Assembly: GCF_036195045.1 (NCBI RefSeq)
Contig: NZ_CP108100.1
Location: 3,348,001 to 3,412,000, forward strand
Origin: Streptomyces sp. NBC_00236
Lineage (GTDB): Bacteria > Actinomycetota > Actinomycetes > Streptomycetales > Streptomycetaceae
Direction of reading: 5' to 3'
Length of the DNA stretch: 64,000 nucleotides
Below are positions 40,004 through 64,000 of this stretch, piece by piece. Position 1 is the first letter of the stretch. The number at the start of each line of letters is the position of its first letter. The notes under the pieces are model-generated. The model saw only the letters and a list, made by a program, of their open reading frames with translations, had not been told where the DNA came from and did not search any database. The position numbers and the translations under genes are program-made.

Positions 40004-40414
40004 TCAGTCGGGCCACGCGGAGCGGCCGGAGAGCAGGGCCCGGGCGGCTTCCCGGGTGGCGTCCATGTCGAAGCCGTCGGTCCGCCAGGTGGTCGCGCGC
40101 ATGCTGCCCCGGTCCCGGTAGGAGCGCACGATCCGCATGTGGTCGCGGCGCGCCACGAAGGCGTGCAGATCCCGCTCCGTACGCCAGACGGAGACCGAAC
40201 CCGACCGCGGTCGGAACGGATCGGGATCCACCCACAGCCACAGACCGACCGCGCCCTCCAGGTCCTGCCAGATCCGCCGGAGGGCGATCCCCTCGACGGT
40301 GACGCCGAACGCGGTCAACGGCCGGTGCGGGGTGAACTCGGTGACGCTGACGACGGCCGCGCCGTCCGCCGCGGGACCGGGCTTCCACGGTGTGAACCAG
40401 AGGGTGGCCGACAT
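40004..40414 (-). CDS. Small alpha/beta-barrel (monooxygenase-like) protein of unknown function
   Basis: A 136-residue protein. SVSVWRTERDLHAFVARRDHMRIVRSYRDRGSMRATTW resembles the dimeric alpha-beta barrels of antibiotic-biosynthesis-monooxygenase or spheroidene-monooxygenase-like proteins, with several Trp and His. No cofactor site is visible. ATG with GAGGAG seven bases upstream. It is divergent from a hydrolase gene, and the shared 108 bases carry a copy of the cluster operator, so it may belong to the lipid cluster regulon. Confidence 0.6.
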   Translation of the reverse strand: MSATLWFTPWKPGPAADGAAVVSVTEFTPHRPLTAFGVTVEGIALRRIWQDLEGAVGLWLWVDPDPFRPRSGSVSVWRTERDLHAFVARRDHMRIVRSYRDRGSMRATTWRTDGFDMDATREAARALLSGRSAWPD

Positions 40415-40463
40415 GGTGTTTCTCCTCGTGAGAGCGGAGCGGCGGACTCCCCCCACCTATAAA

Positions 40464-40481
40464 AGCACGGTCGTTCGTGCT
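40464..40481. promoter_or_regulatory. Cluster TetR operator, site A
   Basis: AGCACGGTCGTTCGTGCT: outer AGCACG/CGTGCT arms are perfectly inverted. It is 41 bases before the hydrolase ATG. The same motif recurs at 55.75, 55.79, 58.25 and 58.30 kb. Confidence 0.75.
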
Positions 40482-40521
40482 AACTTATCATGCTCCGGAT
40501 ACCTATCGAGGAGTACTGGGC

Positions 40522-41433
40522 ATGGTCCACACCGAGACACTCGCCAGCGCCGCGCTCAACACCGTGTCCCGGGTCTCGGGCGGACTCGCGGGTGCGGGCA
40601 CCTACACGCTGTTCCACATGCCACTGGCCCGGAGCAGAATGCGGAACTCGGAACGGGAGCTGTTCGGCAAGGCCGACACCGGGCGGCTGAAGGTCAACGG
40701 CAAACTCGCGGTGACCTACCGGTGGGGCGACGGCGAACGGCCCGTCCTCCTGGTGCACGGCTGGCAGTCGCGCGGCTCGCGCCTCGCGGACTTCGTCCCC
40801 GGCCTCCTCGACCGGGGCTACAGCGTCATCACCTTCGACGCGCCCGGCCACGGCGACGCCACCGGGCGCAGCACCACGATTCTCGAGTACCGCGACATCA
40901 TCACCGGACTCCAGAACGAGTACGGCGAGTTCGAGGCCGTGATCGCACACTCGCTGGGCGCCCTCGGCTCGTTCTTCGCGTTGCAGGGCGGGGTGACGGC
41001 GAAGAGGATCGTCACCATCAGCGGGGTCTGCGACTACGACTACCTGATCGAGGAGTTCTCCTCCGCGCTCAAGCTGCGCGGCCCGCTGAAGGCTCAGCTG
41101 CACCAGCGTGTCGCGAAGAACCTCTTCCCCGGCATGCCGGCCGAGCTGACGCCGTTCTCCGCCGTGAACACGGTGACGGACCTGGAGCCCCCGCTCCTGG
41201 TCATCCATGACGAGGACGACACCAGGATCAGCGTGAAGCAGGGGCGCCGGCTCGCCGCCGCGTTCGGCGGTCAGGCGCGGCTGATCATCACGAGCGGACT
41301 CGGGCACCGCCGGATCCTGGGCGATGCGGACGTCGTGCGCACCGTGCTGGACTTCGTCGAGCACGGACCGGACCGCTCCGCGGACGCGCCCACCGAGGCG
41401 GAAGCGGCCAGCGAGGCGGCCGCCACCCAGTGA
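40522..41433 (+). CDS. Alpha/beta hydrolase (paralogue of the 57.4-58.2 kb gene)
   Basis: A 303-residue hydrolase. VLLVHGWQSRGS near residue 75 is the oxyanion-hole strand, AHSLG gives nucleophile Ser144, FDAPGHG precedes it, and GLGHRRIL near residue 253 supplies the His. It is closely similar to the hydrolase at the other side of the cluster: KLAVTYRWGDGERPVLLVHGW and LEYRDIIT recur almost unchanged. It has about 55 extra N-terminal residues. Lipid or thioester substrate is a guess. Preceded by operator site A. Confidence 0.87.
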   Translation: MVHTETLASAALNTVSRVSGGLAGAGTYTLFHMPLARSRMRNSERELFGKADTGRLKVNGKLAVTYRWGDGERPVLLVHGWQSRGSRLADFVPGLLDRGYSVITFDAPGHGDATGRSTTILEYRDIITGLQNEYGEFEAVIAHSLGALGSFFALQGGVTAKRIVTISGVCDYDYLIEEFSSALKLRGPLKAQLHQRVAKNLFPGMPAELTPFSAVNTVTDLEPPLLVIHDEDDTRISVKQGRRLAAAFGGQARLIITSGLGHRRILGDADVVRTVLDFVEHGPDRSADAPTEAEAASEAAATQ

Positions 41434-41498: not shown

Positions 41499-42575
41499 TT
41501 ACGCGTGCGCGTCGAGGAAGTCCACGATGTGCCCGAACACGTCCAGTGCGGCGCCCCGGCCGACGAACGCGTCGAAGTGGCCGTAGCCCGGGATCTCCTC
41601 GTACCGCACGTCCAGTTGGGGCTGCCGGGCGGCGAGCACCTCGTGGCAGAGCTTCTGGGAGTCCAGCCACATGCCGTTCTCGCTGCCGGAGACCAGCAGG
41701 ACGGGGCAGTCGATCCGGCCGGCCCGGTCCAGGGCGTTCTCGGGCAGTGCCCGGTAACGGTCGTCGCCCTGATTCCAGCGCACCACGCTGCGGGCCAGCG
41801 CGACCCGCCGCAGATGCGGCAGGATCCACAGCGGTGCCGGGCCGAGGAGCTGCGCCAGGCGTTCATGGGTGGCGTCCGACAGGTTCTCGTGCACGAACAG
41901 TGAAGCACCCACACACCAGGCCGAGTTGGACAGGATCTGACAGGTGGGGTCGGGGCAGCTCGCCCCCTTCGACGCCAGGGCGAACAGCGGGGTGTAGCGC
42001 GACCAGAACCCGACCTTGCGGAAGTCCACCGGGATGTGGTCGAAGCGGGACCGGAACAGTTCGCCGGCCATCGTCATCTTCAGCGAGGTCCGGGCCGCCA
42101 GCTTGGGCGTCAGGAACACCCCCTGCGCGACCACGCCCGCCAGGCCCGGCACGAGTCCCGCGGTCATGCTCATCGAGAGCGAGAGCGCGCCGATGCAGTG
42201 CGCCACGACGAACAGCGGTCGGCCGCCCAGCCGTTGACGGATGTACGTGACCGCTGCGGGGATGTCGTACAGCGCGACGTCGTCGTACGTGTAGCGGCGA
42301 CCGGTCTCGTTGTACGGCAGCCGGCAGCTGCCCCGCCAGTCGAGCAGCCACGGCTCGTACCCCTCGTCGAGGAGCACGTCGACGAGATTGCGGGTCTCCG
42401 GTTGCAGGAACATGTCCGACGAGGCCGTGTGGCCGTGCAGGAGCAGCACGGCGGGCCGGTCCCCGCGGCCGGTCCCGACCCGGGTGAGCCCCAGCCGGGT
42501 GCCGTCGCCCGCCCGGAAGGGGATCTCCTCGACGACGGTCTCGTCGAGGCGTGTGTACAGGGGCCGCAGGATCAT
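41499..42575 (-). CDS. Alpha/beta hydrolase with a Cys nucleophile
   Basis: A 358-residue protein. VLLLHGHTASSDMFL near residue 43 is the oxyanion strand; the nucleophile elbow reads VVAHCIGALSL, placing Cys127 where Ser is usual, as in PHA synthases and in the hydrolase halves of GMC-oxidoreductase fusions. GYGHFDAFVG near the end supplies the His. It starts inside the stop of the thioester-reductase gene (ATGA), so it is coupled to it and probably acts on its product. A Cys nucleophile favours acyl transfer over hydrolysis (inference). Confidence 0.87.
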   Translation of the reverse strand: MILRPLYTRLDETVVEEIPFRAGDGTRLGLTRVGTGRGDRPAVLLLHGHTASSDMFLQPETRNLVDVLLDEGYEPWLLDWRGSCRLPYNETGRRYTYDDVALYDIPAAVTYIRQRLGGRPLFVVAHCIGALSLSMSMTAGLVPGLAGVVAQGVFLTPKLAARTSLKMTMAGELFRSRFDHIPVDFRKVGFWSRYTPLFALASKGASCPDPTCQILSNSAWCVGASLFVHENLSDATHERLAQLLGPAPLWILPHLRRVALARSVVRWNQGDDRYRALPENALDRAGRIDCPVLLVSGSENGMWLDSQKLCHEVLAARQPQLDVRYEEIPGYGHFDAFVGRGAALDVFGHIVDFLDAHA

Positions 42576-44881
42576 CGCTTGCGCTCCGTCAGGGTCGGGT
42601 GCCGGCGTAGGTCGAGCAGGTCCGCGCCGACCCGGGCGAACGGGCCGAGCAGTCCGCGGCCGATCTCCAGGCCGAACCAGGCGAGCCAGCTCAGCTTGGC
42701 GAGCCGCTTCTCCTGGCCGGACAGGCGTGGATCGACGCGGATGCCGTCGACCTGGTCCCGTACGTAACTGTCGGAGGGCACGACGATCTCGCCCTCCAGC
42801 GTCGCGGGTTCGCCCTCGCGCCCGAGCTCGACCGTCAGCGCGCGCGTCTGGCGCCACAGGTCACGCCGCGCGTGGGCGGACTTCCTGCCCTCCAGCCACC
42901 ACCCGCCGCCGTCGGCGTCACGCAGCCGCAGCCGGTATCGCAGCAGCGGATGGTGCACCCCGTGCTCCAGCGGGATGCCTTCCTCGGGGCGGACCCACAC
43001 ATCGCCCTGCTCGACCACGAGGGGGTCGGGGTGCAGGAGGGTGCAGGAGAGCTCGCCCCGCACGTCCACCCGGCGCTCCTTGACCAGTTGGTACATGCTC
43101 ACGATGGACAGGGTGAACGAAGCGGCGCACGGGGTGTCTGCGGGGCCGCCGGCCGGGCCCAGGCCGCCCCGCATCGTCTCGGGGAACCACAGATAGGGCT
43201 GGTCGGTGCGCTGCGGGAGCCGGGCAAGGCCGTCCCCGGCCAGCCGTTCGAAGGTCTTCAGCTGCTCCTGCATGCCGTACCGGGTCGAGGCGGGCAGGTT
43301 CTGTGCGGCGACGAACGCCTCGGTGCGCTCACCGGTGGCCGCCGGGCCCATCAGGGTCGCCTCGCACAGTTTCACGGCGGTGGGGCTCGCCAGGACCCGT
43401 GCCAGGAAGTCGAGTTCGGCGACCGGCTCGTCCCGCAGCCGGGCCATGACGTCGAGCCGCCACTCCTCCCAGTCCTGGACGCGCACGTTCATGCCGCCGA
43501 GCTTCATGTCATGGACCACGTCCGGCAGGGAGTTCGGCGTACCGCTGAGGTGGTAGTTGTAGCCCCAGGCCTCGGGCTCGCAGATCGCGGCCACCGCCAC
43601 CCGGCTCACCCAGTCCACCGGTGCGGCGTTGAGGTGGCGGAACGCGGGCACCGTACGGAACCGGCTGAACACCGACATCATGCCGCTGCTGAGGTCCTGC
43701 GGGTTGCTCGCCCCCGTCCTGGTGTGCCCACCGATGCCGCCCGGCCGCAGCAGGGTGACCACCAGACCGTGTTCGCGGGCCCGCCGGAGCACGGCCTCCG
43801 CGGCCCACTTCGACTTGTCGTACCCGGCGACCAGGCCGTCGATGTGGGCGACGGGGTCGTCCTCGCCCATGGACTCGATGCCGATCTCGTTGAAGACCGC
43901 GATCGAGGAGATGTGGTGCAGCGGCTTCGGCCGTCCGGTGGCCGCCAGTTCCGCGAGCGTCAGCGGCCCGATCACGTTGCTCTGCCGCAACGACGGATAG
44001 CCGCGCAGGAAGTCGACCGCCGCGGCCACGCTCACGACGGAGTCCAGCTCCCCGGCCAGCTCGTTCCAGCGCTCGTCCACCAGTCCGAGGCGCGGCAGGC
44101 GGAGGTCGCCCGGCAGGACCGTCACCCTTCTGCGGATCTCACCGGACCAGGGCAGGGAGAACCGCTTGAGCGCCGCGCCGAGCCGTTCGGTGCCTTCGTC
44201 CGCGTCGTCCGCGCGCACCAGGCAGAACACGTGCGCGTCGCTGTGGCGCAGCAGATCGAGCAGCATGTGGCCGCCGAGGAAGCCGGTCGCCCCGGTCAGC
44301 AGGACCTTGCGGGGCGGGGCGGCCTCCGGCCGGCGGGCCCAGGGCAGCCCGTCGGCGCGGGCGAGGTCGGCCAGGATGAGTTCGAGGTCGGTGTCAGCGG
44401 TCGCTGCGACACCGGTTCCGGCACCGCGGTGCGGGGCGGGCACCGCCTGTGGCCGGCCCCCGTCCGCCGCGAGCGCGCGTGCGGCGAGGCGGCGCGGTCT
44501 GGCGTCGGCGAACACGTCGTCGAGGCTGAGCTCCAGGCCGGAGTCCCGGGCCAGGTTGGCGACGAGCGCCACCGCGTCGACCGACGTTCCTCCGGCGTCG
44601 AAGAAGTCGGTGTCGGGCCCCATCGACCCGCCCGGCAGCAGACGGGCTGCCTCGGCCGCGATGATCTCGGCCAGCCGGGCCGGCTCCCCGCCGACCGCCT
44701 CCCCACCGGCTTCCGGCCCGGCGGCCGTCGGCCCCGAGGCGGCCGGGGCCGTCGCCGGCCGGACCCTGGCCAGCAGGCCCGACACCGTCAGCCGGCCTCC
44801 GCCCCGCTCGGCCGCCTCACCCGCCCGCTGCTGCCCGGTACTCGGGCGGCTCGGCGGCACGTCCTCGTTCACTTCGCCCAT
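42572..44881 (-). CDS. Carrier protein-thioester reductase with GMC-fusion-like C-terminal domain
   Basis: A 769-residue protein. Residues 66-135 are an acyl/peptidyl carrier (DFFDAGGTS, pantetheine Ser100). Residues 190-500 are an NAD(P)-dependent thioester reductase (VLLTGATGFLGGH near 193, Tyr354-x3-Lys358, PVDWVSRVAV), which would release the chain as aldehyde or alcohol. Residues about 565-745 (YLWFPETMRGGLGP, LLRYRLRLRDADG, DLWRQTRALTVELG) resemble the domain that links GMC oxidoreductases to hydrolases. ATG with GAGAGG upstream. It follows the PKS by 66 bases and overlaps the Cys-hydrolase gene. Confidence 0.85.
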   Translation of the reverse strand: MGEVNEDVPPSRPSTGQQRAGEAAERGGGRLTVSGLLARVRPATAPAASGPTAAGPEAGGEAVGGEPARLAEIIAAEAARLLPGGSMGPDTDFFDAGGTSVDAVALVANLARDSGLELSLDDVFADARPRRLAARALAADGGRPQAVPAPHRGAGTGVAATADTDLELILADLARADGLPWARRPEAAPPRKVLLTGATGFLGGHMLLDLLRHSDAHVFCLVRADDADEGTERLGAALKRFSLPWSGEIRRRVTVLPGDLRLPRLGLVDERWNELAGELDSVVSVAAAVDFLRGYPSLRQSNVIGPLTLAELAATGRPKPLHHISSIAVFNEIGIESMGEDDPVAHIDGLVAGYDKSKWAAEAVLRRAREHGLVVTLLRPGGIGGHTRTGASNPQDLSSGMMSVFSRFRTVPAFRHLNAAPVDWVSRVAVAAICEPEAWGYNYHLSGTPNSLPDVVHDMKLGGMNVRVQDWEEWRLDVMARLRDEPVAELDFLARVLASPTAVKLCEATLMGPAATGERTEAFVAAQNLPASTRYGMQEQLKTFERLAGDGLARLPQRTDQPYLWFPETMRGGLGPAGGPADTPCAASFTLSIVSMYQLVKERRVDVRGELSCTLLHPDPLVVEQGDVWVRPEEGIPLEHGVHHPLLRYRLRLRDADGGGWWLEGRKSAHARRDLWRQTRALTVELGREGEPATLEGEIVVPSDSYVRDQVDGIRVDPRLSGQEKRLAKLSWLAWFGLEIGRGLLGPFARVGADLLDLRRHPTLTERKR

Positions 44882-44918: not shown

Positions 44919-44966
44919 CTGCCGCCATGACTCGCTGCCGCCACGACTCACTGCCGCCACGACCGG
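44919..44966. repeat. 16-bp unit, three copies, across the PKS stop codon
   Basis: Units at 44919, 44935 and 44951 share CTGCCGCCA(C/T)GAC. The middle copy carries the PKS stop and the repeated unit adds further stops in the spacer before the thioester-reductase gene. Confidence 0.75.
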
Positions 44967-47900
44967 AACGTCCGCAGCCGCTCCGGGGTCGTTCGGGCCT
45001 CCGGGTGGCCGTCCGGGTCGCCTCCGCCCAGCGCCGCGACCAGGCGGCGCGCCGGTACGTTGCGCGGGGTGCGGTCCGCCGCCATGCCGACGGTGGTGCA
45101 GCCGAGCCCCTCGGCACGGCCGGCCAGCCACTGGAGCACCCGTTCCTCCACTCCGCGGCCGAGCACCCGGCAACTGAGCAGCCAGGCCAGGACCTCCAGC
45201 CGGTCGCCGTCCGGGCGCAGGGCCAGCAGACCGATCTGGCCGTAGTCGCCGAACCGGTCGCGGGCCGCGACGGTCCAGACCTCGCCCTGCTCCCGCCACC
45301 GCCCGAGGTCGCCCCCGTCCGCCGACCGCGCGCGCAGGGTGAACTGGTTGGTACGGCGGATGAGCTGGGCGGCCCGCAGGCCGTCGGGCTCTTCCAGGGG
45401 CCGGATGTCGAGGTCCAGCTCCAGCTGGTCGAGGAACTCCTCGAAGCCCGCTTGCTCCCGGGCAGCGTCCCGGGCCCGCTCCTGCTCGTAGAAGCCCGCC
45501 CGCAACGCGTCCTCCGCCGTGGCCGCCGCGGGCACCAGGGGCCACAACTCGGCGAGGAACGCCTCCAGTTCGCCGGCGGCGGGGCAGGAGACGGAGAGCA
45601 CCTCGGGCAGGGCGGAGCGCACGGCGGCGATCTCGGCCGGGTTGTCGTCGAGGTAGAGGAAGCTGTCGAGGCCGAGGTTCAGGGACCGTGCCGCCGCCGC
45701 CAGCCGGTCTGCCTTGCGGCCCCATCCGGCGTCGAGCACGCTGAAGTGCTCCGCCCGCAGCACGCTGTCCGGCCGTTCGAGCACGGCACGCACGGTGTCC
45801 TCGTCGTTGTTGCTGACCAGGACGAGCAGGACCCCTGCCGCCCGCCACCGGAGCAGTCTGCGGGCCAGGAGCGCGCGGGCGCCGCCGAGGTCCACGCTCT
45901 CCGGTCCGCCCTCCCCGGCCACCCCGCCCCACAGCGTCTCGTCGCCGTCCACCGCGATCACCTTGGGCGGTGGGCGGCGGACCGCGGTGGCGACGTCGGC
46001 CACGGTGAGGGCCACGGCCGCCTGGAACTCGGGGCTGAACGGCAGGTGGGCCAGCTCGTCGGTCCTGTCGTCGAACCGGTCCTCGACGGCATGGTGGCGG
46101 GTCCAGTCGTCGGGGTGCAGGACCGCGATGCCGGGCAGGTCCGACAGCAGGGCGGCGACCTCGCGCTGCCACCGCTCGTGGCGGTCGTCCGGCCGGGCGG
46201 ACGGCAGGAACCCGACGATCAACGGCAGCCTCGTCCGCTCGGACAGTGCCCGCAGGGCGGCCGCGTACTCCGTGCGGAGCTCGTCGAGCAGCGCGTCGTT
46301 CACCGGCCCGAACCGTTCCAGGTCGGCTGCCCGCAGCAGCACGGCACCGATCTCCGTCGAGGCCTCCGTGAAGACGCCGGAAGGGTCCTTGAGGGCTGCC
46401 AGCACATGGTGGTACGGCGCCTCGGCGACGCGGGGCGCGGTGGCCTGCGGGGCGTCGGACACACAGTCGGCCAGGGCCGCCTCGCACAGCAGCGGCAGGT
46501 CGCCGAGGGCGAAGGTGGCCGCGACGGCGAGCGAGCCGGGCCGCACCGGCGGCGGGCCCTCGGGCAAGGACCCGGCTCCGTTCCCGGTCGCTTCCCCCGC
46601 CCGGTTCCCGGTCTCGTCCCCGGTCTCGTCCCCGGCCTCCGTCGGTGCTGCCGCGTGCGCGTGGGGTGCGGAGGCGGCCGGCGCCGGGAGCGCTGCCCGG
46701 GCCGGAGCGGCAGGGTCGTCGGCCGCCTCGTCGAGCAGCCGGAGGAAGTCGGCGGCGAGCCCGGCGCAGGCCGCCCCGTCGATGATGTCCAGGTTGTGGT
46801 CGAAGCGGAGCCGGCCGGCGTCCGGCATCATGATGATCATGAGGTCGAGGTCGGAGTGGCCGGTGCCGGCCGGAAGGACTTCGAGGCGGCCGAGTTCCGC
46901 CGTGGACCGTACGTAGTTGAAGTAGACCTCGACCATCGGGGCGTTCTCCCGGTGCAGTCCCTGCGCGGCGAGCACCGGCAGGGTGTCGGAGAACATGGCG
47001 CCCTTCGCGAGGACCCGTTCGAGCCGGCCGTCGGTGCGGCGCAGCACCTCGTCGATCCGCTCACCCGGCAGGGCCTCGGCCGGGAACGGCACCGGCACGC
47101 CGAAGAAGCCGACCGCGCCGGCCGCGTCGACGTGGATGCGGGTGTCGACCGGGACGGCCAGCACGAACCGGTCCTGCTGCTGCTTGCGGGCGAGGAGCAC
47201 CGTCAGGGCGCCCAGGCAGAAGGCGGCCGGAGTGATCCCGAGCCGTCGCGCCCCGGATCCCACCCGGTCCATGAGGCCCTCGGGGATCGCCAGGGTCAGA
47301 CTGCCCGCCCGGAAGGAGCGCGCATCCGGCCGGGCCCGGGTGAGCGTCAGATCGAGCCGGCGGCTGCCGTCGAACGCGTCCCGCCAGGCCGCCGCCGCAC
47401 CGTCCGGGCGGGCACCGGACCGCGACGCGTCCGGGGGTGCCGGCTGCGCAGCGAGCAGCAGGTCGACATCGCGATTGGAGACCTCGTCGCCGAGCGGCGT
47501 ACCGGACAGTTCGGCATCGATCTCGGCGGCCACGAGCAGCAGCGACTGCAGATCGCTCACCGCGTGGTGGGCCCCGATGAGCAGGGTCTGCTCCGCGCCG
47601 GCACGATCGATCAGCTCGAACCGCCACAGCGGGGCGGCCGTCAGATCGAAGGGAGGAGCGAGCAACTCGTGCAGCCGCTCCCCGGCTTCCCCCTCCTCTC
47701 CGGGCGCCTGCTCCGACCATCGCAGCAGGGGACGGTCCGGGGCCCGCTCCACCCGCAACCGCCGCTCGGAACCAGGTCCGTTGACGATGGCGGTACGCAG
47801 CGCGGCATGGCGTCCCGCGAGGCGCGCGAGGATGTCCGTGAGCTGCCGGCGGGTGGTCGGCCCGGTGAGCCGGAACGCGAGGCCTATGGAGTGCGCCGCG

Positions 47901-55766: not shown

Positions 55767-55789
55767 ATCTACACCCTTACATACTGACC

Positions 55790-55870: not shown

Positions 55871-56512
55871 ATGGCAGAGACACACACCGACGGGCGGATC
55901 GCGCGCGGTAACCAGACACGTCAGCTGGTCCTCAAGCGTGCCGTGGAGATCGCCTCCGTCGAAGGCCTGGAGGGCCTCTCGCTGGGACGGCTCTCCACCG
56001 AACTGAAGCTCAGCAAGAGCGGGGTGTTCGCCCTGTTCGGCTCCAAGGAGGACCTGCAGCTCGCCACGGTCCGGGCGGCCATCAAGGTCTACCTGGAGCA
56101 CGTCGTCCAGCCCGCCCGCGACCTGCCCCCGGGGCTCGACCGCCTGTGGCAGGTGTGCACCGGCTGGCTCGACTACTCACGGCGGCGGGTGTTCCCCGGT
56201 GGCTGCTTCTTCTACTCGGTCACGGCCGAGTACGACGCCCGCGAGGGCAAGGTCCACGACACGCTCGCCTCGGCCCGCGCCAACTGGTTCGCCTTCGTCG
56301 AACAGACCGTGCGCGAAGCACAGCAGTCGGGCGAGGTCGAGGAGGGGACCGACGCGGCCCAGCTCACGTTCGAGCTCGTCGCGCTGATGGAGATGGCGAA
56401 CGCCGAATCCGTCCTGCACAACGAGTTCACCTGCTACGACAAGGCGTCCAAGGGCATCCTGAACCGTCTGCGCGTCGCGGCCACCGACGCATCGGTGCTT
56501 CCCGCCTCCTGA
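55871..56512 (+). CDS. TetR-family regulator of the lipid cluster
   Basis: A 213-residue regulator. GRLSTELKLSKSGVFALFGSKEDLQLATV (about residues 41-69) is the helix-turn-helix; the rest matches the TetR_C type with GCFFYSVTAEYDAREG (residues near 112). Divergent from FAAL/PKS and convergent with fabI. Five related palindromes in the promoters around it support this protein as their reader, but the link is not proven. ATG used; a TTG four codons earlier is the alternative, with an ill-spaced ribosome site. Confidence 0.88.
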   Translation: MAETHTDGRIARGNQTRQLVLKRAVEIASVEGLEGLSLGRLSTELKLSKSGVFALFGSKEDLQLATVRAAIKVYLEHVVQPARDLPPGLDRLWQVCTGWLDYSRRRVFPGGCFFYSVTAEYDAREGKVHDTLASARANWFAFVEQTVREAQQSGEVEEGTDAAQLTFELVALMEMANAESVLHNEFTCYDKASKGILNRLRVAATDASVLPAS

Positions 56513-56575: not shown

Positions 56576-57355
56576 TCATGCCCCGATGGCGTGCACCCCG
56601 CCATCGACGTGCACGATCTCGCCCGTCGTCCGGGGAAACCAGTCCGAGAGCAGCGCGACGACCCCACGGGCGGCCGGCTCCGGGTCGGACAGGTCCCAGC
56701 CGATGGGCGAGCGCGTGTTCCACACCTCGCGGAACGTCTCGAACCCCGGGATGGACTTGGCCGCCATCGTCTTGATCGGCCCCGCCGCGACCAGGTTGCA
56801 ACGGATGCCGCGCGGCCCGAGATCCCGGGCGACATAGCGCGAGGTGGACTCCAGGGCCGCCTTGGCCACCCCCATCCAGTCGTACGCGGGCCAGGCCGTC
56901 TGCGCGTCGAAGTCCAGCCCCACGATCGACCCGCCCCGCTCCTCCATGAGCGGCAGACAGGCCACGGCCAACGCCTTCAGCGAGTACGCGGACACCTCGA
57001 CGGCCGTCGCGACGGAATCCCAGCCGGTCTCCAGGAAGTTGCCCCCGAGCGCGTCCTGCGGCGCGAAGGCGATGGAGTGCACCACACCGTCGAGGCGGGC
57101 ATCCTGACCGACGCTCTCCCTGATCCGGTCCGCGAGGCTGTCGAGATGCCCCTTGTCCTGGACGTCGAGCTCGACCAGCGGCGCCGGCCGGGGCAGCCGC
57201 TTGGCGATGCGTTCGACCAGGCTCAGCCGGCCGTACCCGGTGAGGACCACCTCGGCGCCCTGCTCCTGGGCGAGCCGGGCGGTGTGAAAGGCGATCGAGG
57301 ACTCCATCAGGACTCCGGTCACCAGAACGCGCTTGCCCGCGAGTATTCCGCTCAT
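56576..57355 (-). CDS. InhA/FabI-type enoyl-[acyl-carrier-protein] reductase
   Basis: A 259-residue SDR. TGVLMESSIAFHTARLAQEQG, VVHSIAFAPQ, GLDFDAQTAWPAYDWMGVAKAALES (catalytic Tyr and Lys in YDWMGVAK) and NLVAAGPIKTMAA match mycobacterial InhA almost segment by segment, more so than E. coli FabI. It reduces trans-2-enoyl thioesters with NADH. As the PKS has DH but no ER, this may act in trans, or it may be a dedicated or resistant copy of the housekeeping reductase. The ATG overlaps the upstream hydrolase stop. Confidence 0.9.
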   Translation of the reverse strand: MSGILAGKRVLVTGVLMESSIAFHTARLAQEQGAEVVLTGYGRLSLVERIAKRLPRPAPLVELDVQDKGHLDSLADRIRESVGQDARLDGVVHSIAFAPQDALGGNFLETGWDSVATAVEVSAYSLKALAVACLPLMEERGGSIVGLDFDAQTAWPAYDWMGVAKAALESTSRYVARDLGPRGIRCNLVAAGPIKTMAAKSIPGFETFREVWNTRSPIGWDLSDPEPAARGVVALLSDWFPRTTGEIVHVDGGVHAIGA

Positions 57356-58209
57356 CCCGCTGCCACCTCGGTCTTCCGTCCGGCCTCCGTGACATCGGAG
57401 GTCATGAAGTTCGCTATTTCGTCGACGACTTGGGGCGAGCCGAGAATGCGCCGGTGCCCGAACCTGCGGGTGGTGACCAGGCGGGCGCGGTCACCGAAGG
57501 CCTCGGCGACCCGTCTCCCCTGACCGGCGTCGACCATGCCGTCCTCCTCGTCATGGATGACGAGGAGCGGGATCTGCACGTTCGCCGCCTCGTGGAAGAC
57601 CGAGAAGCGGGTCCACATGTCCGCCTCGCCCGGGTACACATCCCGTTCGATACGCCCCCGGAGCTCCTCCTTGAGCCGCGGTTCGAGGCCCATCCCGGCA
57701 CTGAACGCGTCGACGAGGTACGTGAAGTCGGGGACCGTGCTGATCGCCACGATCCGGCCGGTCCGCACCCCGTACCGCAGGGAGAAGAAGGTCGCGGTGA
57801 CACCGAAGGAGTGCGCCACGACAGCCTCGAAATCCCCGTGCACACGGTGGAGTTCGGTGATGATGTCGCGGTACTCCAGCAGGGTCGTGGAGTCTCCGGT
57901 GGCCTCCCCGTGGCCCGGCGCGTCGAAGGACACCGGGCTGTAGCCCAGCTCCACCAGCCGGGCGACGGCCTTCGCGTAGCGCGATGCCCGCGACTCCCAG
58001 CCGTGGACGAGGAGCACCGGGCGCTCGCCGCCGCCCCAGCGGTAGACCACCGCCACCTTGCCGTTGACGGTCAGCTCGCTCGTCCGTGCGCTCTCGATGG
58101 CCGCACGCTCGTCGGGCCGGGTCCTGCTGCGCCCTTTCGGCCGCCGGAAGAGGTCGAAGACCTCCTCACCCCTGTCGCTCAGGGCCGCGCCTACGGCTGC
58201 GGGATCCAT
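57352..58209 (-). CDS. Alpha/beta hydrolase (paralogue of the 40.5-41.4 kb gene)
   Basis: A 285-residue hydrolase. VLLVHGWESRAS near residue 65, FDAPGHGEATGDSTTLLEYRDIIT near 95 and AHSFG (Ser134) repeat the pattern of its paralogue across the cluster; FGHRRIL near the end gives the His. First gene of a two-gene leftward operon with fabI. The start lies 40 bases from operator site B. Confidence 0.87.
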   Translation of the reverse strand: MDPAAVGAALSDRGEEVFDLFRRPKGRSRTRPDERAAIESARTSELTVNGKVAVVYRWGGGERPVLLVHGWESRASRYAKAVARLVELGYSPVSFDAPGHGEATGDSTTLLEYRDIITELHRVHGDFEAVVAHSFGVTATFFSLRYGVRTGRIVAISTVPDFTYLVDAFSAGMGLEPRLKEELRGRIERDVYPGEADMWTRFSVFHEAANVQIPLLVIHDEEDGMVDAGQGRRVAEAFGDRARLVTTRRFGHRRILGSPQVVDEIANFMTSDVTEAGRKTEVAAG

Positions 58210-58248: not shown

Positions 58249-58262
58249 AGCACGATCGTTCG
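58249..58262. promoter_or_regulatory. Cluster TetR operator, site B
   Basis: AGCACGATCGTTCG, preceded by TT, 40 bases before the hydrolase ATG; left arm identical to site A apart from one base. Confidence 0.7.
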
Positions 58263-58302
58263 CTCACATTTAGCACCAATGCCTTCGCGGGACTAGAAAA
58301 CT

Positions 58303-58319
58303 GCACGGACGGTCGTGCT
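58303..58319. promoter_or_regulatory. Cluster TetR operator, site C
   Basis: GCACGGACGGTCGTGCT; read on the minus strand it is AGCACGACCGTCCGTGC, the same consensus. It is 38 bases before the start of the 57-residue gene that opens the rightward operon. Confidence 0.7.
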
Positions 58320-58357: not shown

Positions 58358-58531
58358 ATGACGCTCCCGCACCCCTCTCCCCGCACGGGCGAAGTGATCG
58401 ACACGGGCCCCGGCCCGAACCAGTGGATCAAGGACCATCTGGACGGCCTGATCGACGCGCAGCTCCTCAAGGACTGTCCCGCGCCCGTCCCCGCCACCAC
58501 ACCGGAGCTCGAGAAGGGGCTGCTGCCATGA
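58358..58531 (+). CDS. 57-residue small protein, first gene of the rightward lipid operon
   Basis: ATG preceded by GGAGG at five bases. The product is MTLPHPSPRTGEVI, then DTGPGPNQWIKDHLDGLIDA, then a Pro-rich end. It stops in ATGA, overlapping the patatin-like gene start, so the two are coupled. Hydrophilic, Trp/His-containing centre likely helical; no known family recognised. Its excellent ribosome site, operator-linked promoter and coupling make it a probable real gene despite its size. Confidence 0.65.
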   Translation: MTLPHPSPRTGEVIDTGPGPNQWIKDHLDGLIDAQLLKDCPAPVPATTPELEKGLLP

Positions 58532-59478
58532 CCGGCACGGACACCACGGAGCGCATCGGCATCGCCGTCGCCTCGGGCATGCTCAAGGGCGTGTACAGCC
58601 ACGGAGTGCTGTCCGCCTTCGAGGCACGCGGGCTGCGCGCGGACGTGTACGGCACCGCCTCGTCCTCCGGCCTGTCCGGTGGTCTCGCCGCGACCGGCCG
58701 GGCGGTGGAGGTCGGCGTGGACTACTGGCTCGGCGCCGCCCGGGCGGCCACCGAGAAGGGCATGAGCAGCGTCGCGCTCGACAGCATCAAGGAGCACGGC
58801 CCCGCGATGCGCGAAGGGCTCTTCCGCCCCGGGGCCCCCGAGTTCCTCCTCGCCACCAGCAAGGTCACCACCGCGGAGGCGGCGGAGGTCACCCAGGGCC
58901 CGGAGGCCAAGGCACTCGGCAAGCAGCTCCTGCGCAACATCTTCACCGGGGACCGGAGCTGGGTCGAGAAGAACCTGGCCGCCGCCGTGTTCTCCTCCCA
59001 CGCGGCGCCCGGCGGCGAGGAGTTCCGGCTGACGGCCGACAACTACGAAGCCGTCTCCTACGCCTCGACGCGCATGCTGCACGCCTGGGCCGTGCCCGCC
59101 GAGGTCGACGGTGAGGCCTACGTCGACGCGTCGTACACGTGCGCCTGTCCGGCCCGGGAGGTCGCGGCCAAGGGCGTCGACGTGCTCATCGCGATCGGCA
59201 GCGACCCGTTCCCGCTCTTCCGCGACCTCTACGCCTCCGAGGAGATCGCCGACGGCTCCGTCCTGGACGAGGCCCGGGTCCTGGTGATCAAACCGGACGA
59301 CGACCTCAAGCTGCTGGGTGTCGACTACGCCGCGGCGACCCCGGAGGGCCTGGTCAAGGCCTATGAACTCGGTCTCGACGCCGGGCACCTCTTCCTGGAC
59401 CGGCATGCCGGACTGCTCACTCGGGCGGCCACGGGGCAGGCCGGCATACCGGGCGCGAACGTGAAGGACCTGCCGTGA
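58528..59478 (+). CDS. Divergent patatin-like acyl hydrolase
   Basis: A 316-residue protein. SGMLKGVYSHGVLSAFEARG near residue 15 looks like the patatin oxyanion-hole loop and first helix; VYGTASSSGLSGGLAATG near 38 takes the place of the GxSxG nucleophile elbow; YVDASYTCACP near 210 may correspond to the D-G/A catalytic Asp. All are altered from the classical patatin (GTSAGA, DGG). Probably a phospholipase or acyltransferase fold, though a non-catalytic role is possible. Coupled at both ends: it overlaps the small upstream gene and the ferredoxin (GTGA). Confidence 0.72.
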   Translation: MTGTDTTERIGIAVASGMLKGVYSHGVLSAFEARGLRADVYGTASSSGLSGGLAATGRAVEVGVDYWLGAARAATEKGMSSVALDSIKEHGPAMREGLFRPGAPEFLLATSKVTTAEAAEVTQGPEAKALGKQLLRNIFTGDRSWVEKNLAAAVFSSHAAPGGEEFRLTADNYEAVSYASTRMLHAWAVPAEVDGEAYVDASYTCACPAREVAAKGVDVLIAIGSDPFPLFRDLYASEEIADGSVLDEARVLVIKPDDDLKLLGVDYAAATPEGLVKAYELGLDAGHLFLDRHAGLLTRAATGQAGIPGANVKDLP

Positions 59479-59825
59479 CACACGTGGTCACCGAGGAGTG
59501 CGTCCACTGCAAGTTCACGGAGTGCATCACCTACTGTCCCGTCGCCTGCTTCCGTGAAGGCGGGACGTTCCTCGTCATCGACCCCGAGGAGTGCATCGAC
59601 TGCGGGAACTGCGTGGAGGCGTGTCCCGCCGACGCGATCTACCCGGAGGACGAACTGCCCCCCGAGCTCATGCCGGCCCTGGAGTGGAACGCCCGGCTCT
59701 CGGCCGAACTCCCCCTGGCCACCACGCGCGTGGAACCTCTGCCCGACGGCGAGGAGTGGCTGGGGAGGCCCGGCAAGTGGGCGTCGCTCCCGGCGGAACA
59801 GGCTCCCGGTGTTCCCGGCCGGTGA
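59475..59825 (+). CDS. 7Fe/8Fe ferredoxin (FdxA-like)
   Basis: A 116-residue protein. ECVHCKFTECITYCPVACF supplies C-x2-C-x4-C-x3-CP and EECIDCGNCVEACPADAIY the second cluster, as in Azotobacter-type ferredoxin I with one [3Fe-4S] and one [4Fe-4S]. It could feed a desaturase or mixed-function enzyme of the pathway. GTG start overlaps the patatin-like stop by four bases; the next FAAL begins 17 bases before its stop. Confidence 0.9.
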   Translation: MTHVVTEECVHCKFTECITYCPVACFREGGTFLVIDPEECIDCGNCVEACPADAIYPEDELPPELMPALEWNARLSAELPLATTRVEPLPDGEEWLGRPGKWASLPAEQAPGVPGR

Positions 59826-61599
59826 CCACGACCTCGCCTCGCTGCTCCGCGAACGGGCACGGCAGCAACCCGATGCCGTCGCCTACCGGTTCGTCGCCGA
59901 GGACGAATCGGCCGAGGAGATCACCTACGGCGAGCTCCACCGGCGGGCCCTGGGGGTCTCGGCACGCCTTCTGGAGGCCACCCGGGGGCGGCCCGACCCG
60001 GCGCTGCTGCTCTTCGCACCGGGCCTCGACTACCTCGCGGGCCTGTTCGGCTGCTTCTGCTCGGGCGTGCCCGCGGTGCCCGCGTTCCCGCCGGACCCGG
60101 CCCGCCTGGCACGTACGCTGCCGCGGCTCGCCGCGATCGTCCGGGACACCGGATCCGATGTCGTCCTGACCACCTCGGACATCGCACCGCTGATGACGGA
60201 CTGGCTCGCGACGACGCTCGACGGCCGCGCCCCCCGGCTGATCACGACCGACGCACCGGCCGGAGCGGACGCCGGAACCGGCGCCGAAGGGCCGCAGCCG
60301 GTGATCCCTCCGGACCGCCTCGCACTGCTTCAGTACACCTCCGGCTCGACGGCGCTCCCGCGTGGCGTCATGCTCAGCCACGCCCGGCTGCTGGCCAACT
60401 GCCGGGACATCGAGCGCGGGTTCGGAATCCACCCGGGCAGCTCGGGAGGCCTCTGGCTGCCGCCGTACCACGACATGGGACTGATCGGCGGCCTCCTCAC
60501 CCCGCTGTACGCCGGGATACCCGTGACGCTCATGTCGCCCGTGACCTTTCTGCGCCGTCCACTGGCCTGGCTGCGCATGCTGTCCCGGTACGGCGCGACG
60601 ATCACCGGCGCCCCGAACTTCGCGTACGACCTCTGTGTCCGCCGGGCGACGGACGCCGATGTGGCGGGCCTCGATCTGTCCGGTGTCGAGCTCTCCTTCA
60701 CGGGTGCCGAACCGGTGCGCCCCGAGACGCTGGCACGGTTCACGGAGCGTTTCGGACCGAGCGGCTTCCGGGGCGAGTCCTTCTACCCCTGCTACGGCCT
60801 CGCCGAGGCGACCCTGTTCGTGACCGGCGGCAAGCCGCTGGACGGCTGGCGCTCGGTGGAGGTCGACCGCGACGCACTGGAGACACGGGGCACGGCCACA
60901 CCTGCCGGGCCGGCGCAGAGTTCCCGTCCGCTGGTCGGCTGCGGTCACCCCGGCCCCGACACCCGGCTGCTGATCGCCGACCCGGCCACCCGGGAACCGC
61001 TGCCGGACGGCGCGGTGGGCGAGATCTGGGTCGACTCACCCGGTGTCGCCGACGGCTACTGGCGGCGCCCGCAGGAGAGCGCCGAGACCTTCGGCGCGAC
61101 GACGGCGGCCGGGGACGGCCCGTACCTGCGCACCGGCGACCTCGGGTTCGTCCGCAGCGGCGAGCTCTTCGTGGCGGGACGCCTGAAGGACCTGGTCATC
61201 GTCAACGGCCGCAACCTCGACCCGGTCGACATCGAGCGGGTCTGCGAATCCGAGGTCCCCGGCATCCGCCGCAACTGCGGAGCCGCCTTCGCTGTGGAGG
61301 ACACCGCGGGAGGCACCGAGCGGCTGGTGGTGGTCTACGAGGCCGACGCCGGCGACGAGGCGGGGTACCGGGCGGCCGTCGACGGCATCCGGCGGGCGGT
61401 GTCACGGGAGTTGAGCGTCCCGCCGCACGCCGTCGTCCTGACGGCGCCGCGCAGCATCCCCAAGACCTCCAGCGGAAAGGTACAGCGCTGGCTGGCCCGC
61501 CGGGCCTACCTCGCCGGTGAACTCCAGGAACTCGCCCGCTGGCAGGCCCCCGCCCGCAACAGCGACAGCAACCACACCCACGAAGGGACCGGCCGGTGA
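59809..61599 (+). CDS. Second fatty acyl-AMP ligase
   Basis: A 596-residue FAAL. LQYTSGSTALPRGVMLSHARLL, LWLPPYHDMGLIGGLLTPLY, GAPNFAYDLCVRRAT, CYGLAEATLFVTGG and SIPKTSSGKVQRWL are present. It is only a moderate match to the FAAL beside the PKS, so it probably charges another carrier or chain. GTG start chosen because the conserved text begins at FPAGDHDLASLL; it overlaps the ferredoxin end. It is followed by the ThiS-like gene with a four-base overlap (GTGA). Confidence 0.9.
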   Translation: MFPAGDHDLASLLRERARQQPDAVAYRFVAEDESAEEITYGELHRRALGVSARLLEATRGRPDPALLLFAPGLDYLAGLFGCFCSGVPAVPAFPPDPARLARTLPRLAAIVRDTGSDVVLTTSDIAPLMTDWLATTLDGRAPRLITTDAPAGADAGTGAEGPQPVIPPDRLALLQYTSGSTALPRGVMLSHARLLANCRDIERGFGIHPGSSGGLWLPPYHDMGLIGGLLTPLYAGIPVTLMSPVTFLRRPLAWLRMLSRYGATITGAPNFAYDLCVRRATDADVAGLDLSGVELSFTGAEPVRPETLARFTERFGPSGFRGESFYPCYGLAEATLFVTGGKPLDGWRSVEVDRDALETRGTATPAGPAQSSRPLVGCGHPGPDTRLLIADPATREPLPDGAVGEIWVDSPGVADGYWRRPQESAETFGATTAAGDGPYLRTGDLGFVRSGELFVAGRLKDLVIVNGRNLDPVDIERVCESEVPGIRRNCGAAFAVEDTAGGTERLVVVYEADAGDEAGYRAAVDGIRRAVSRELSVPPHAVVLTAPRSIPKTSSGKVQRWLARRAYLAGELQELARWQAPARNSDSNHTHEGTGR

Positions 61600-61862
61600 T
61601 CATCAAGGTCAGGGGCGTCCTGCTCCGCTTCACGGAGTACGAGAACGAGATCGAGGTCGGCGGCGGGACCGTGCGGGCCGGTCTGACCGCGCTGACCGAG
61701 CGCTATCCCCGCCTCGGCGAGGTGCTGCTCGACCGGACGGGAGAGGTACGCCCGACGCATCTGATCGCCCTCAACGGCGAACGGCTCACCAGGAACGAAC
61801 TGGAGCGCGCCGCCGCCGAGGACGACCGGGTCGACATCGTCACCGCGGTCTCCGGAGGCTAG
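61596..61862 (+). CDS. ThiS/MoaD-like beta-grasp protein ending in Gly-Gly
   Basis: An 88-residue ubiquitin-fold protein. IKVRGVLLRFTEYENEIEVGG starts the beta-grasp fold and DRVDIVTAVSGG ends it with a free diglycine, the site that ThiF/MoeB-type enzymes adenylate and thiolate in ThiS, MoaD and CysO. No activating enzyme is in the window; a housekeeping one could serve. Overlapped by the FAAL stop, so made with it. A sulfur carrier would imply a sulfur-containing product or a carrier role for acyl groups. Confidence 0.82.
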   Translation: MIIKVRGVLLRFTEYENEIEVGGGTVRAGLTALTERYPRLGEVLLDRTGEVRPTHLIALNGERLTRNELERAAAEDDRVDIVTAVSGG

Positions 61863-61866
61863 CGCC

Positions 61867-62721
61867 TTGCCACGCAGCTCCTCGTACGAGGCCGTTCTCG
61901 ACGCGAGCCTCTTCACCCCGGCCCAGTTGCAGCCCACCGCCGTCGGACGGCTCGCCTTCCAGGCGGGCACCCGCTGGATGCGCGACCACGTGTGCAGCCA
62001 CCGCACCCTGGTGCACGAGCACCGGGTCGGATTCGTGCTGTGGTCCTGGCAGTTGGAGTACGTCCACCCGCTGCGGTTCCTCGACGCCGACGAGGCACGC
62101 GTCGAGGTGACCGCGCGCGTCCGCGGCCCGCGCGCCTCGCAGCTGGAGGTGGAGATGACCCTCGAAGGCCCGGCCGGTGTCGCGGTGCGCACCCGGGCCG
62201 CCTCCGTGCCGCTGCGGCTCAGCGGCGACGAGGCGCTCTCCGGCGCACCCGGGCCGCTGCCGGGCGCGCTCGCCGGTGCCTTCCACGAGGACGAGACCGA
62301 GCTCACCCCGCACCGTTCGCGGATCCGCGCCATGCGCGCCGGGTTCGCCCGGGACGGCGAGCAGCTCGCCTCGGGAAGCGCGCGCTTCCGGGTGCACCGG
62401 CACCACTGCGAAGTCGCCGACCAGTGGTACTGGGCCGAGACGCTCGGGTTCGCCGCCGGCGCCCGCGAGGAGCTCGTGATGCGGCACGGCAGGACGCTTC
62501 CCGGGCTGCGCCGCGCACTGGCCGCGCCGCTCCGCCGGGTGGACGTGACCTGGCTGCGCGCCGGCCAGTTCCGGGATCTGTTCGAGGTCCGCACGAGCGC
62601 CCATCAGGTCGGGGACGAGCTCGCGTTCGTCCATGAGCTGTGGCTCGCGGGGAACGAGGGCGAGGGCGGGCACGTGAACGAGGACGGCGGGCCGTACGCC
62701 GTCGTGGTGGAGCGCATATGA
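61867..62721 (+). CDS. Double-hotdog-fold protein (thioesterase/dehydratase-like)
   Basis: A 284-residue protein with two similar halves: VHEHRVGFVLWSWQLEYVHPLRFLDADEARVEVTARV (first) and WYWAETLGFAAGAREELVM to LRRVDVTWLRAGQFRDLFEVRTSAHQVGDELAF (second), each looking like a hotdog with a long helix. No clear acid/His pair is certain. Acts on acyl thioesters by family habit. TTG start with GGAGG nine bases upstream; its stop overlaps the next ATG. Confidence 0.6.
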   Translation: MPRSSSYEAVLDASLFTPAQLQPTAVGRLAFQAGTRWMRDHVCSHRTLVHEHRVGFVLWSWQLEYVHPLRFLDADEARVEVTARVRGPRASQLEVEMTLEGPAGVAVRTRAASVPLRLSGDEALSGAPGPLPGALAGAFHEDETELTPHRSRIRAMRAGFARDGEQLASGSARFRVHRHHCEVADQWYWAETLGFAAGAREELVMRHGRTLPGLRRALAAPLRRVDVTWLRAGQFRDLFEVRTSAHQVGDELAFVHELWLAGNEGEGGHVNEDGGPYAVVVERI

Positions 62722-64000
62722 CCTCCCCGGCCGGACCCACGGGCACACCGTCCACGTTCGACGCCGCGGCACGCCTGGAGCAGGCGCTCGGCTGCCCCTT
62801 CGACCCGGACAGCGGTATATCGCTCGCCGGAGGTGTCCGGGCCGACGAGCTGGAGGCGGAGCCCACCGCCGCCTACGAGGCCGCCTGGTCGGCCGGCCTG
62901 CACGAACATCTGGTCCCCGTGTCCGAGGGCGGCCGGCTCGGCTCGTTCGAGTCGCTGACGGGCGTGGTGCGCGCGACCTCGCGGCGCGACCTGGCGGTCT
63001 CCGTCGGTCTCGGGTCGACGCTCCTCGCCGCGACCCCGGTATGGGCCTGGGGCGACGACACCCAGCGGAGCAGGGTCGCCGAGCTCGTCCTCGGCCGTGC
63101 CTGGGGCACCGCCGGCATCAGCGAGGAGGCGGCGGGCAGCGACCTGCTCGCCACCGGCACCCGCGCCGTCCCGGCCCCCGGCGGGTATGTGCTCGACGGA
63201 GAGAAGTGGCTGGTCGGCAACGGCCGCCGCTCCTCGTTCGCCACCGTCCTCGCCGCATCCGATCCCTCGTACGGACTGTTCCTGCTCGACTTCGACGCCC
63301 TCGACGGCAGCACCGTGAAGCGGCTCGACAAGGTACGCACCCACGGGCTGCGCGGCCATGATCTCAGCGGCTTCGCCCTCAGCGGCTGCCCGGTCGGCGC
63401 CGAGGCCGTGCTCGGCCGGCCCGGCCGCGGCATCGAGATGGTCTCCGGCATGCTGCAGTTCACCCGGACCCTGGTCGGCGCGAGCAGCCTCGGCGCGGCC
63501 GACACCGCATTGCGGATCGCGCTGCGCCACGCCCGTGGGCGGATGCTCTACGGCCGGCCGGCCCTCGCCATGGCCCCGGTCCGCTCCCTGCTCGCCCGCG
63601 GCTTCGCCGATCTGCTGGTCGCGGAGTGCACCGAGCTGTCCGCCGCGCGCGGGCTCGACGTGGCGCGGCAGCGCATGGCGCTCTGGTCCGCGGTGGCCAA
63701 GTACGTGGTGCCGCAGCTGTCCGTGGACACCGTGACCGCCTGCGCGGAGGTGCTCAGCGCACGCGCCCACCTGCGCCGGGGAGTCGCGGACGGCGCGTTC
63801 CAGAAGCTGCTGCGCGATGTCGCGGTCACCCCGGTCTTCGAGGGCACCGAACTGGTCCAGCTGGACACGGTCCGGGCCCAGCTGAGCGGTGCGGCCCGAC
63901 GCCGCCGGGCGCCGGCGACGCTGCCGCTCCCGCTGCTCTTCGGGTTCGGCGAGCCGGTGGTGTCGCCCGCACCGCGGGACCTGCGCCCCTCGCTCACCTT
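62718..64000 (+). CDS. Acyl-CoA dehydrogenase-like flavoenzyme, runs off the right edge
   Basis: About 427 residues are visible and the frame is still open at the window end. YVLDGEKWLVGNG, KRLDKVRTHGLRGHDLSGF, FTRTLVGASSLGAADTALR and TPVFEGTELVQ match the middle and C-terminal parts of acyl-CoA dehydrogenases; the Glu in FEGTE sits where the catalytic base of medium-chain enzymes lies. It would desaturate an acyl thioester with FAD. The start is the ATG overlapping the hotdog stop (ATGA). Last visible member of the rightward operon. Confidence 0.85.
   Translation, partial: MTSPAGPTGTPSTFDAAARLEQALGCPFDPDSGISLAGGVRADELEAEPTAAYEAAWSAGLHEHLVPVSEGGRLGSFESLTGVVRATSRRDLAVSVGLGSTLLAATPVWAWGDDTQRSRVAELVLGRAWGTAGISEEAAGSDLLATGTRAVPAPGGYVLDGEKWLVGNGRRSSFATVLAASDPSYGLFLLDFDALDGSTVKRLDKVRTHGLRGHDLSGFALSGCPVGAEAVLGRPGRGIEMVSGMLQFTRTLVGASSLGAADTALRIALRHARGRMLYGRPALAMAPVRSLLARGFADLLVAECTELSAARGLDVARQRMALWSAVAKYVVPQLSVDTVTACAEVLSARAHLRRGVADGAFQKLLRDVAVTPVFEGTELVQLDTVRAQLSGAARRRRAPATLPLPLLFGFGEPVVSPAPRDLRPSLT

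Follow-up and report, generated by a model that had tools for sequence, protein, structure and literature searches.

A single-module foxicin-type assembly line in a probably composite biosynthetic cluster of Streptomyces sp. NBC_00236

Here we describe a group of biosynthetic genes that begins at position 40004 of a 64,000-nucleotide stretch of DNA (hereafter, the window) corresponding to positions 3348001-3412000 of the one-contig, 8.33-Mb genome of Streptomyces sp. NBC_00236. We found that four consecutive genes of this group correspond to foxBI, foxBII, foxBIII and foxEI of the foxicin (fox) cluster of Streptomyces Tue6028. They encode a fatty acyl-AMP ligase (FAAL1), a polyketide synthase (PKS) that ends in C and FkbH domains, an acyl carrier protein (ACP)-thioester reductase and a lipase-like α/β hydrolase (AbhB). 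Judged by orthology and gene order, this core is a foxicin-type assembly line in a single-module version. On balance, we consider it probable that the cluster as a whole is composite, with the fox-type core lying within a biosynthetic block of roughly 59 kb, and that the core joins a starter with one methylmalonyl unit, attaches a three-carbon unit and releases the chain reductively, under the control of the regulator TetR1. The original prediction, made from the DNA alone, knew of no described pathway with this gene set. That claim fails for the core, which shares 60-80% identity with the foxBI-BII-BIII-EI proteins of a cluster whose product has been published. By these comparisons, the core belongs to a kind already known, in a single-module form.

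Relationship to the foxicin cluster

A database record matching the C-terminus of the reductase bears the name FoxBIII and describes a protein of 945 aa with PP-binding and NAD_binding_4 families. Among the open-licence papers listed on FkbH, FAAL and thioester reductase, none gave a pathway with this gene set. According to the portions of the foxicin paper used here (PMC5318452), foxBI encodes a protein of 583 aa (A domain), foxBIII one of 945 aa (peptidyl carrier protein-thioesterase, PCP-TE), foxEI an esterase of 378 aa and foxEII a carboxylesterase of 259 aa. The same portions give the domains of FoxBII as ACP-KS-AT-DH-KR-ACP-KS-AT-DH-KR-ACP, C and FkbH, report that a foxBII mutant had lost foxicin production, and propose an isobutyryl starter and also a glyceryl unit (PMC5318452). 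They further state that, as of 2017, the cluster had been found in Streptomyces only and no other strain was known to make a related compound. The cluster is cited as BGC0001598 in the part of PMC13391507 that mentions it, and in the excerpts of later literature available to us foxicin clusters figure as antiSMASH matches or as a cluster type activated by yeast.

In a comparison with the producer's own contig, FAAL1 is 66% identical to the 583-aa Tue6028 protein, the PKS 60% identical to FoxBII over its second module, C and FkbH, the reductase 72% identical to the 945-aa protein over residues 156-790, and AbhB 80% identical to FoxEI. All four orthologues lie in the same order on that contig, and its open reading frames (ORFs) of 583, 945 and 259 aa match Table 1 of the paper. 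The two systems are alike in the foxBI-BII-BIII-EI order and in having C-FkbH at the PKS end. They differ in that the window PKS has one extension module and FoxBII two, in the canonical DH motif of the window PKS, and in the neighbours of the core, which in the window are TetR1 with its operator, FabI, a second FAAL cassette (FAAL2) and a nonribosomal peptide synthetase (NRPS) half. Further single-module PKSs occur among the listed proteins of the family. No relative of FoxEII was matched, at E up to 1, in a 115-kb region obtained by extending the window (extended numbering carries the window numbering past 64000). A protein family with a median length of 259 aa is found 3' of AbhB in 33 of the scanned loci, which comprised 75 core loci together with 9 stretches lying upstream.

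Because the window orthologues are a FAAL and an ACP-reductase, FoxBI and FoxBIII look mislabelled in the literature: the former looks like a FAAL, and the latter seems to end in a thioester reductase where a thioesterase had been assigned. Should FoxBI indeed be a starter ligase, FoxBIII a reductase and FoxEI a cysteine enzyme, the reaction scheme could not stand in its published form, and the chemistry of the family becomes testable with four purified proteins. The single-module version, with its own repressor-type sites, would be a simple test system for fox chemistry.

Catalytic motifs and proposed mechanism

In the PKS, the KS cysteine is intact (in DTACSSS), as are the DH motif HRVAGTVRLP (HxxxGxxxxP) and the KR motif YSAAN (YxxxN). 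The AT motifs are GHSQG and YASH, which we take to be of the methylmalonyl type. The C domain carries HHAVSDL (HHxxxD), and the FkbH domain, which scores 369 bits with TIGR01686 (cut-off 146.65), carries DGDETLW (DxDxT). The best solved relative of the reductase is MxaA (E=4e-55), and both its YxxxK motif and the ACP serine are invariant in 28 aligned sequences. In AbhB, a cysteine aligns with the nucleophilic serine of lipases. It is present in all 84 distinct homologues of at least 65% identity and likewise in FoxEI of Tue6028. In polyhydroxyalkanoate (PHA) synthases a comparable cysteine serves acyl transfer; on this analogy, AbhB most likely acts in acyl transfer rather than in hydrolysis.

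The sequence itself establishes which genes are present, their order, the catalytic motifs, the conservation of the operator and how far the block reaches; the substrates, the bond formed, the product and control by TetR1 we infer as follows. FAAL1 would activate a starter acid and load it onto the N-terminal ACP of the PKS, whose module would add one methylmalonyl unit, with KR and DH leaving a 2-methyl-2-enoyl thioester. The C and FkbH domains, together with the ACP of the next protein, form one NRPS-like termination module split over two proteins, with FkbH replacing the A domain. FkbH would charge this ACP with a three-carbon unit from an acyl phosphate, in the canonical case glyceryl derived from 1,3-bisphosphoglycerate, and the C domain would join the chain to that unit. 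The reductase, using NAD(P)H, would release the chain as an aldehyde or alcohol, and AbhB would most likely pass an acyl or acyl-glyceryl group onward. TetR1 would act through one operator on the core operon, the FabI-AbhC operon, the pair formed by AbhA and the small gene at 40004, and the FAAL2 cassette. As far as domain logic goes, loading by a FAAL, a single methylmalonyl-type extension, a terminal module made of C-FkbH and ACP-reductase, reductive release and a single operator shared by three intergenic regions agree with what had been predicted. The predicted fatty acid is not supported as the substrate of FAAL1, which need not be long-chain, since the foxicin authors propose an isobutyryl starter in the portions of their paper cited above. 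The predicted glyceryl thioester is plausible, with the altered FkbH signature and the amide of foxicin A, both described below, speaking against it.

Several observations weigh against this scheme. Foxicin A, as presented in the cited portions of PMC5318452, carries its acyl chain as an amide on an aminobenzoquinone, and neither a glyceryl ester nor a reduced end is visible in it; therefore either the C domain makes an amide, or the glyceryl does not persist, or the core itself makes another compound. The conserved 269-residue C-terminus of the reductase returned no Pfam family and no meaningful sequence match, and the transferase reading of AbhB has a single residue as its basis. A FAAL lies directly upstream of the PKS, or is fused to it, in 9 of the 12 relatives tested; the other three genomes have no close FAAL1 beside the PKS. 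On the NRPS side, a scan of 64000-115000 for the operator, allowing up to three mismatches, listed 93614 (three mismatches) as the only place, and no further operator of this kind precedes a gene start of the block there. Finally, fox-type FkbH domains carry SNND in all 101 members in which the motif was found (120 proteins listed of 464), at a site where other FkbH proteins have S/T-K/R-N, with K/R in 5/5 compared.

Since an asparagine replaces K/R, the substrate of fox-type FkbH may differ. The fox-type FkbH subclass might load a C3/C4 acyl phosphate that bears an amino group or differs in some other way, so that the C domain makes an amide and an N-acyl amino aldehyde is released towards the aminoquinone part of foxicin. 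The amide that holds the chain of foxicin A in the cited portions of the paper accords with this. However, the phosphatase DxDxT and the LSCR cysteine of the transferase part are both kept, and DGDETLW alone is not peculiar to the fox type, being found, with TKNE, in a proteobacterial FkbH protein (locus L081). The glyceryl proposal of the foxicin authors likewise points the other way, and we regard the amide route as quite unlikely. The loss of an FkbH cysteine, to which a missing Cys near the HAD motifs seemed to point, was also considered and was discarded: other FkbH proteins also lack it, and the LSCR cysteine is kept in 7/7 compared.

A shared operator

Four copies of a palindrome, the first of them GCACGGTCGTTCGTGC, fall in three divergent intergenic regions. 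The original prediction had placed a shared palindrome at no fewer than four promoters, a fair statement if both directions are counted. With up to three mismatches on both strands there were 13 matches, whereas 100 shuffles gave 5.46 on average and never more than 12. When no more than two mismatches are allowed, positions 1-82000 (extended numbering) contain four places only, all inside the cluster, and positions 1-36000 none. The two relatives that have the whole cluster carry sites at all four corresponding places, S. poriferorum with 0-2 mismatches and Streptomyces sp. WZ.A104 with 1-3. Genome-wide, a looser pattern gave no enrichment (168 forward and 161 reverse matches; control, 210 and 230), and two of its three exact matches in the genome sit in the cluster. 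Judged by position and conservation, the operator shared by the core and the FAAL2 cassette is real. Beside the second palindrome, from about 55790 onward, there is another, partial copy.

Another TetR_C_13 regulator, TetR2, is encoded beyond the window at about 90130-90867 and is 73% identical to TetR1. Upstream of it, two tandem repeats (90105 and 90143, five mismatches each) were recognized by eye, with a spacing much like that of the repeats before TetR1. An operator common to TetR1 and TetR2 is only suggested by this resemblance.

Extent and composition of the conserved block

The block is collinear with WZ.A104 from 40004 to about 99435 (extended numbering), roughly 59 kb, of which the window covers less than half. 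Next to the block, neither the genes up to 39966 on the left nor those from 99721 onward on the right have a homologue in place in WZ.A104, whose contig was read further on both sides. Two doubtful ORFs inside the block (88715-88927 and 93400-95100) have no match in WZ.A104. S. poriferorum, which is closer kin, also matches to the left of 40004 and to the right as far as its contig reaches. The predicted left end of the cluster thus stands; the right end, put at 64000, does not. A self-standing lipid cluster ending at 64000 is ruled out by collinear conservation to about 99435.

Beyond the window, the block encodes an ACP, a second acyl-CoA dehydrogenase with a long C-terminal part, a SnoaL-like and an FAD-binding protein, an MFS pump, and a two-module NRPS that has a thioesterase and two each of condensation, adenylation and carrier domains. 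Near the NRPS, within 82000-93202, there are genes for an HPPD-like protein, an FMN-dependent dehydrogenase and an aminotransferase, which together, judged by their families, look like a hydroxyphenylglycine set. The block also holds a ketosynthase, three AMP ligases, a carrier protein and two phosphopantetheinyl transferases. In the second acyl-CoA dehydrogenase (64883-67273), about 400 fused residues have no Pfam family and look methyltransferase-like by eye.

The idea of one pathway confined to 40004-64000 is not supported in view of the size of the block and its NRPS half; moreover, in another genome, G003, the FAAL2 cassette and the PKS lie on separate contigs. It could even be argued that two or three independent clusters (the fox-type core, the FAAL2 cassette and an NRPS cluster) merely adjoin each other, joined only by inheritance in one lineage. 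The cassette occurs without a PKS nearby, and its marker is rare. Among 392 congeners, the hotdog gene of the cassette has a match in 5, 3 of them at at least 70% identity (the window genome counted), whereas AbhB, used as the core marker in this count, has a match in 52, namely 46 at at least 66% (again counting the window genome) and six at about 40%. The NRPS side showed no operator when up to two mismatches were allowed. However, one operator precedes the core as well as the FAAL2 cassette, and two relatives have it in matching positions; TetR2, so similar to TetR1, lies at the far end of the block; and WZ.A104 keeps the block but neither of its flanks. Separate clusters seem to us unlikely, and we favour a composite cluster.

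FabI raises a related question. The window genome has two FabI copies (72% identical), as do both whole-cluster relatives; G003 has one. Among the proteins of the window part, the cluster copy has the highest conservation in WZ.A104 (93%), a value reached by two proteins beyond the window, and no FabI match was seen in the flanking sequence covered for 74 of the 76 core loci identified. These facts could mean that the copy is a drug-tolerant duplicate protecting the producer, the whole cluster making an inhibitor of enoyl-ACP reductase, and not the missing enoyl reductase of the PKS. A dedicated enoyl reductase for the FAAL2/dehydrogenase branch fits the same facts, and we hold the inhibitor reading to be rather improbable. 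Within the composite cluster, FabI may be an enoyl reductase acting in trans or a tolerant target copy.

In G003, a divergent set beside the FAAL2 cassette (L095:7753-15683) comprises an AMP ligase, a hydrolase, a 4HBT thioesterase, a phosphopantetheinyl transferase, a desaturase-like protein, a 98-aa protein and an MFS protein. The desaturase and the transferase are about 39% identical to counterparts at the far end of the block studied here.

Distribution of the core

The closest named relatives of the PKS end are from Streptomyces. A scan of named genomes identified 76 loci, mostly in this genus, with five in Nocardia and one each in Amycolatopsis, Catenuloplanes, Kitasatospora, Actinacidiphila and another actinobacterium; the proteobacterial locus L081 has an FkbH relative only. 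In 66 loci the sequence extends 4.5 kb or more beyond the PKS, and in 64 of these the PKS, reductase and AbhB genes follow in order, the exceptions being L071 and L081. By the AbhB marker, at the threshold of at least 66% given above, the fox core is common in Streptomyces. In a phylum-wide sample, AbhB (E up to 1e-90) was matched in 3/396, all of the window's genus, although named matches exist in other genera. Two genomes have two AbhB-type genes each, G087 with identities of 79% and 68% (L155 and L156; possibly two fox-type cores) and G302 with 80% and 70%.

C-FkbH relatives at 52-53% identity are also present in five plasmid records of Rhodococcus. In the two plasmids read (L144 and L145:24373-29916), the core is followed by a crotonyl-CoA carboxylase/reductase, two glycosyltransferase-type genes and an α/β hydrolase. 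Family searches, run on L145 only, assign a PMT_2-type protein, a GT28-type glycosyltransferase and a PF00756 esterase. This setting suggests that the Rhodococcus cores make a glycosylated envelope product. Together with the family membership of the FAALs, it also lends some substance to a lipid reading, in which a long fatty acid is extended once with methylmalonyl, esterified with glyceryl and released reductively as an acylglycerol-type membrane or signal lipid. We consider such a lipid possible but doubtful; the characterized relative, foxicin, has a proposed isobutyryl starter and a short-chain amide product in the portions of PMC5318452 cited above.

A broader view, tentative and on the unlikely side, is that C-FkbH, the reductase (T-reductase-X, with X its C-terminal part) and the cysteine hydrolase form a portable actinobacterial chain-ending cassette. 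It would have its own SNND subclass of FkbH, use a non-glyceryl or additional C3 acyl phosphate, release an acylated aldehyde and hand the chain over through a cysteine acyltransferase. Were this so, the scheme for the aminoquinone of foxicin would need redrawing, and the family would take in envelope lipids of the mycolata.

Gene content of the window

Genes were called from third-position GC content and family searches (Table 1). The searches show that the gene set originally listed is essentially right: at 40004-64000 there are two FAALs, the C-FkbH PKS, the ACP-thioester reductase, a FabI/InhA-like reductase, a MoaD/ThiS-like protein, a 7Fe ferredoxin, an acyl-CoA dehydrogenase, α/β hydrolases and a TetR_C_13 regulator. 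The patatin and hotdog calls are weak, the latter having sub-threshold YbgC-type matches and no Pfam match. The MoaD/ThiS-like protein, encoded between FAAL2 and the hotdog gene, is kept in S. poriferorum (98%), WZ.A104 (86%) and G003 (78%); no ThiF/MoeB partner for it was found among the cluster genes run.

Table 1. Genes and operator sites of the cluster within the window
Feature	Position	Strand	Evidence and remarks
Small conserved protein, left end of conserved block	40004..40414	-	78% in WZ.A104, 77% in S. poriferorum; sub-threshold DUF3291 match only
Operator palindrome 1	40465..40480		0 mismatches; same place in both relatives
AbhA, α/β hydrolase, Ser nucleophile	40522..41433	+	AbhC paralogue, 52%
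AbhB, FoxEI orthologue, lipase-like α/β hydrolase, Cys in nucleophile elbow	41499..42575	-	Start inferred; gastric lipase match
ACP-thioester reductase, FoxBIII orthologue, 269-aa conserved C-terminal part	42572..44881	-	Start inferred; TIGR01746, 232 bits
PKS, ACP-KS-AT-DH-KR-ACP-C-FkbH, FoxBII orthologue minus one module	44948..53860	-	Domain models, motifs, 60% to FoxBII
FAAL1, FoxBI orthologue	53948..55708	-	FAAL models; start inferred at second Met, ORF may start at 55768
Operator palindrome 2	55751..55766		1 mismatch; found at this place in both relatives, with 3 mismatches in WZ.A104
TetR1, TetR_C_13	55859..56512	+	Family match; 73% to TetR2 beyond the window
FabI/InhA-like enoyl-ACP reductase, second copy of the genome	56576..57355	-	Family match; 72% to other copy
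AbhC, α/β hydrolase, AbhA paralogue	57352..58209	-	Family match
Operator palindrome 3	58250..58265		2 mismatches; same place in both relatives
Operator palindrome 4	58303..58318		1 mismatch; same place in both relatives
Patatin-like protein, weak	58528..59478	+	22.8 bits, under cut-off 27.7
7Fe ferredoxin	59475..59825	+	Ferredoxin I match, E=2.2e-31
FAAL2, start approximate	59800..61599	+	FAAL match; 76-77% in G003
MoaD/ThiS-like protein, Gly-Gly end	61596..61862	+	PF02597
Hotdog-like protein, weak	61867..62721	+	Sub-threshold YbgC match
Acyl-CoA dehydrogenase 1, start inferred	62718..64000, runs on to 64445 beyond the window	+	Family matches

Comparison with known systems

Besides foxicin, several known systems share parts of the architecture of the core. 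According to the part of PMC12304814 cited here, the malleicyprol synthase BurF has an ester-forming C domain, an FkbH-like domain, T and Red, releases an aldehyde and closes its ring in a Knoevenagel-type reaction; it is a demonstrated precedent for ester formation followed by reduction. Like the window core, it has a PKS chain followed in turn by C, FkbH-like, T and reductase; unlike in the core, where FkbH is complete, FkbH is represented in BurF by its N-terminal extension alone. The two also differ in how they end. Knoevenagel closure requires a β-keto group, and none is expected in the window system because the KR and DH motifs of its only module are intact; a butenolide of the BurF type was rejected on these grounds.

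In the tetronate glycerate operon (tetromadurin), an FkbH protein and an ACP serve in glyceryl loading, as described in the excerpt of PMC7489565 used here. The window is like this operon in FkbH and ACP and unlike it in reductase release. Formation of a tetronate was considered and set aside, there being no FabH-like ring-forming gene among the genes run in 40004-64000.

In the vioprolide synthetase, the chain continues after FkbH and C; in the window, the reductase comes directly next. The vioprolide system otherwise resembles the core in its FAAL loading, in FkbH replacing an A domain and in the C domain that follows, which is ester-forming in vioprolide according to the cited portion of PMC8949500. 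Finally, the core resembles mycobacterial FadD32/Pks13 in that a FAAL would feed a type I synthase of the ACP-KS-AT kind (partial model matches, both far under cut-off), and differs from it in having DH and KR and a C-FkbH-reductase end.

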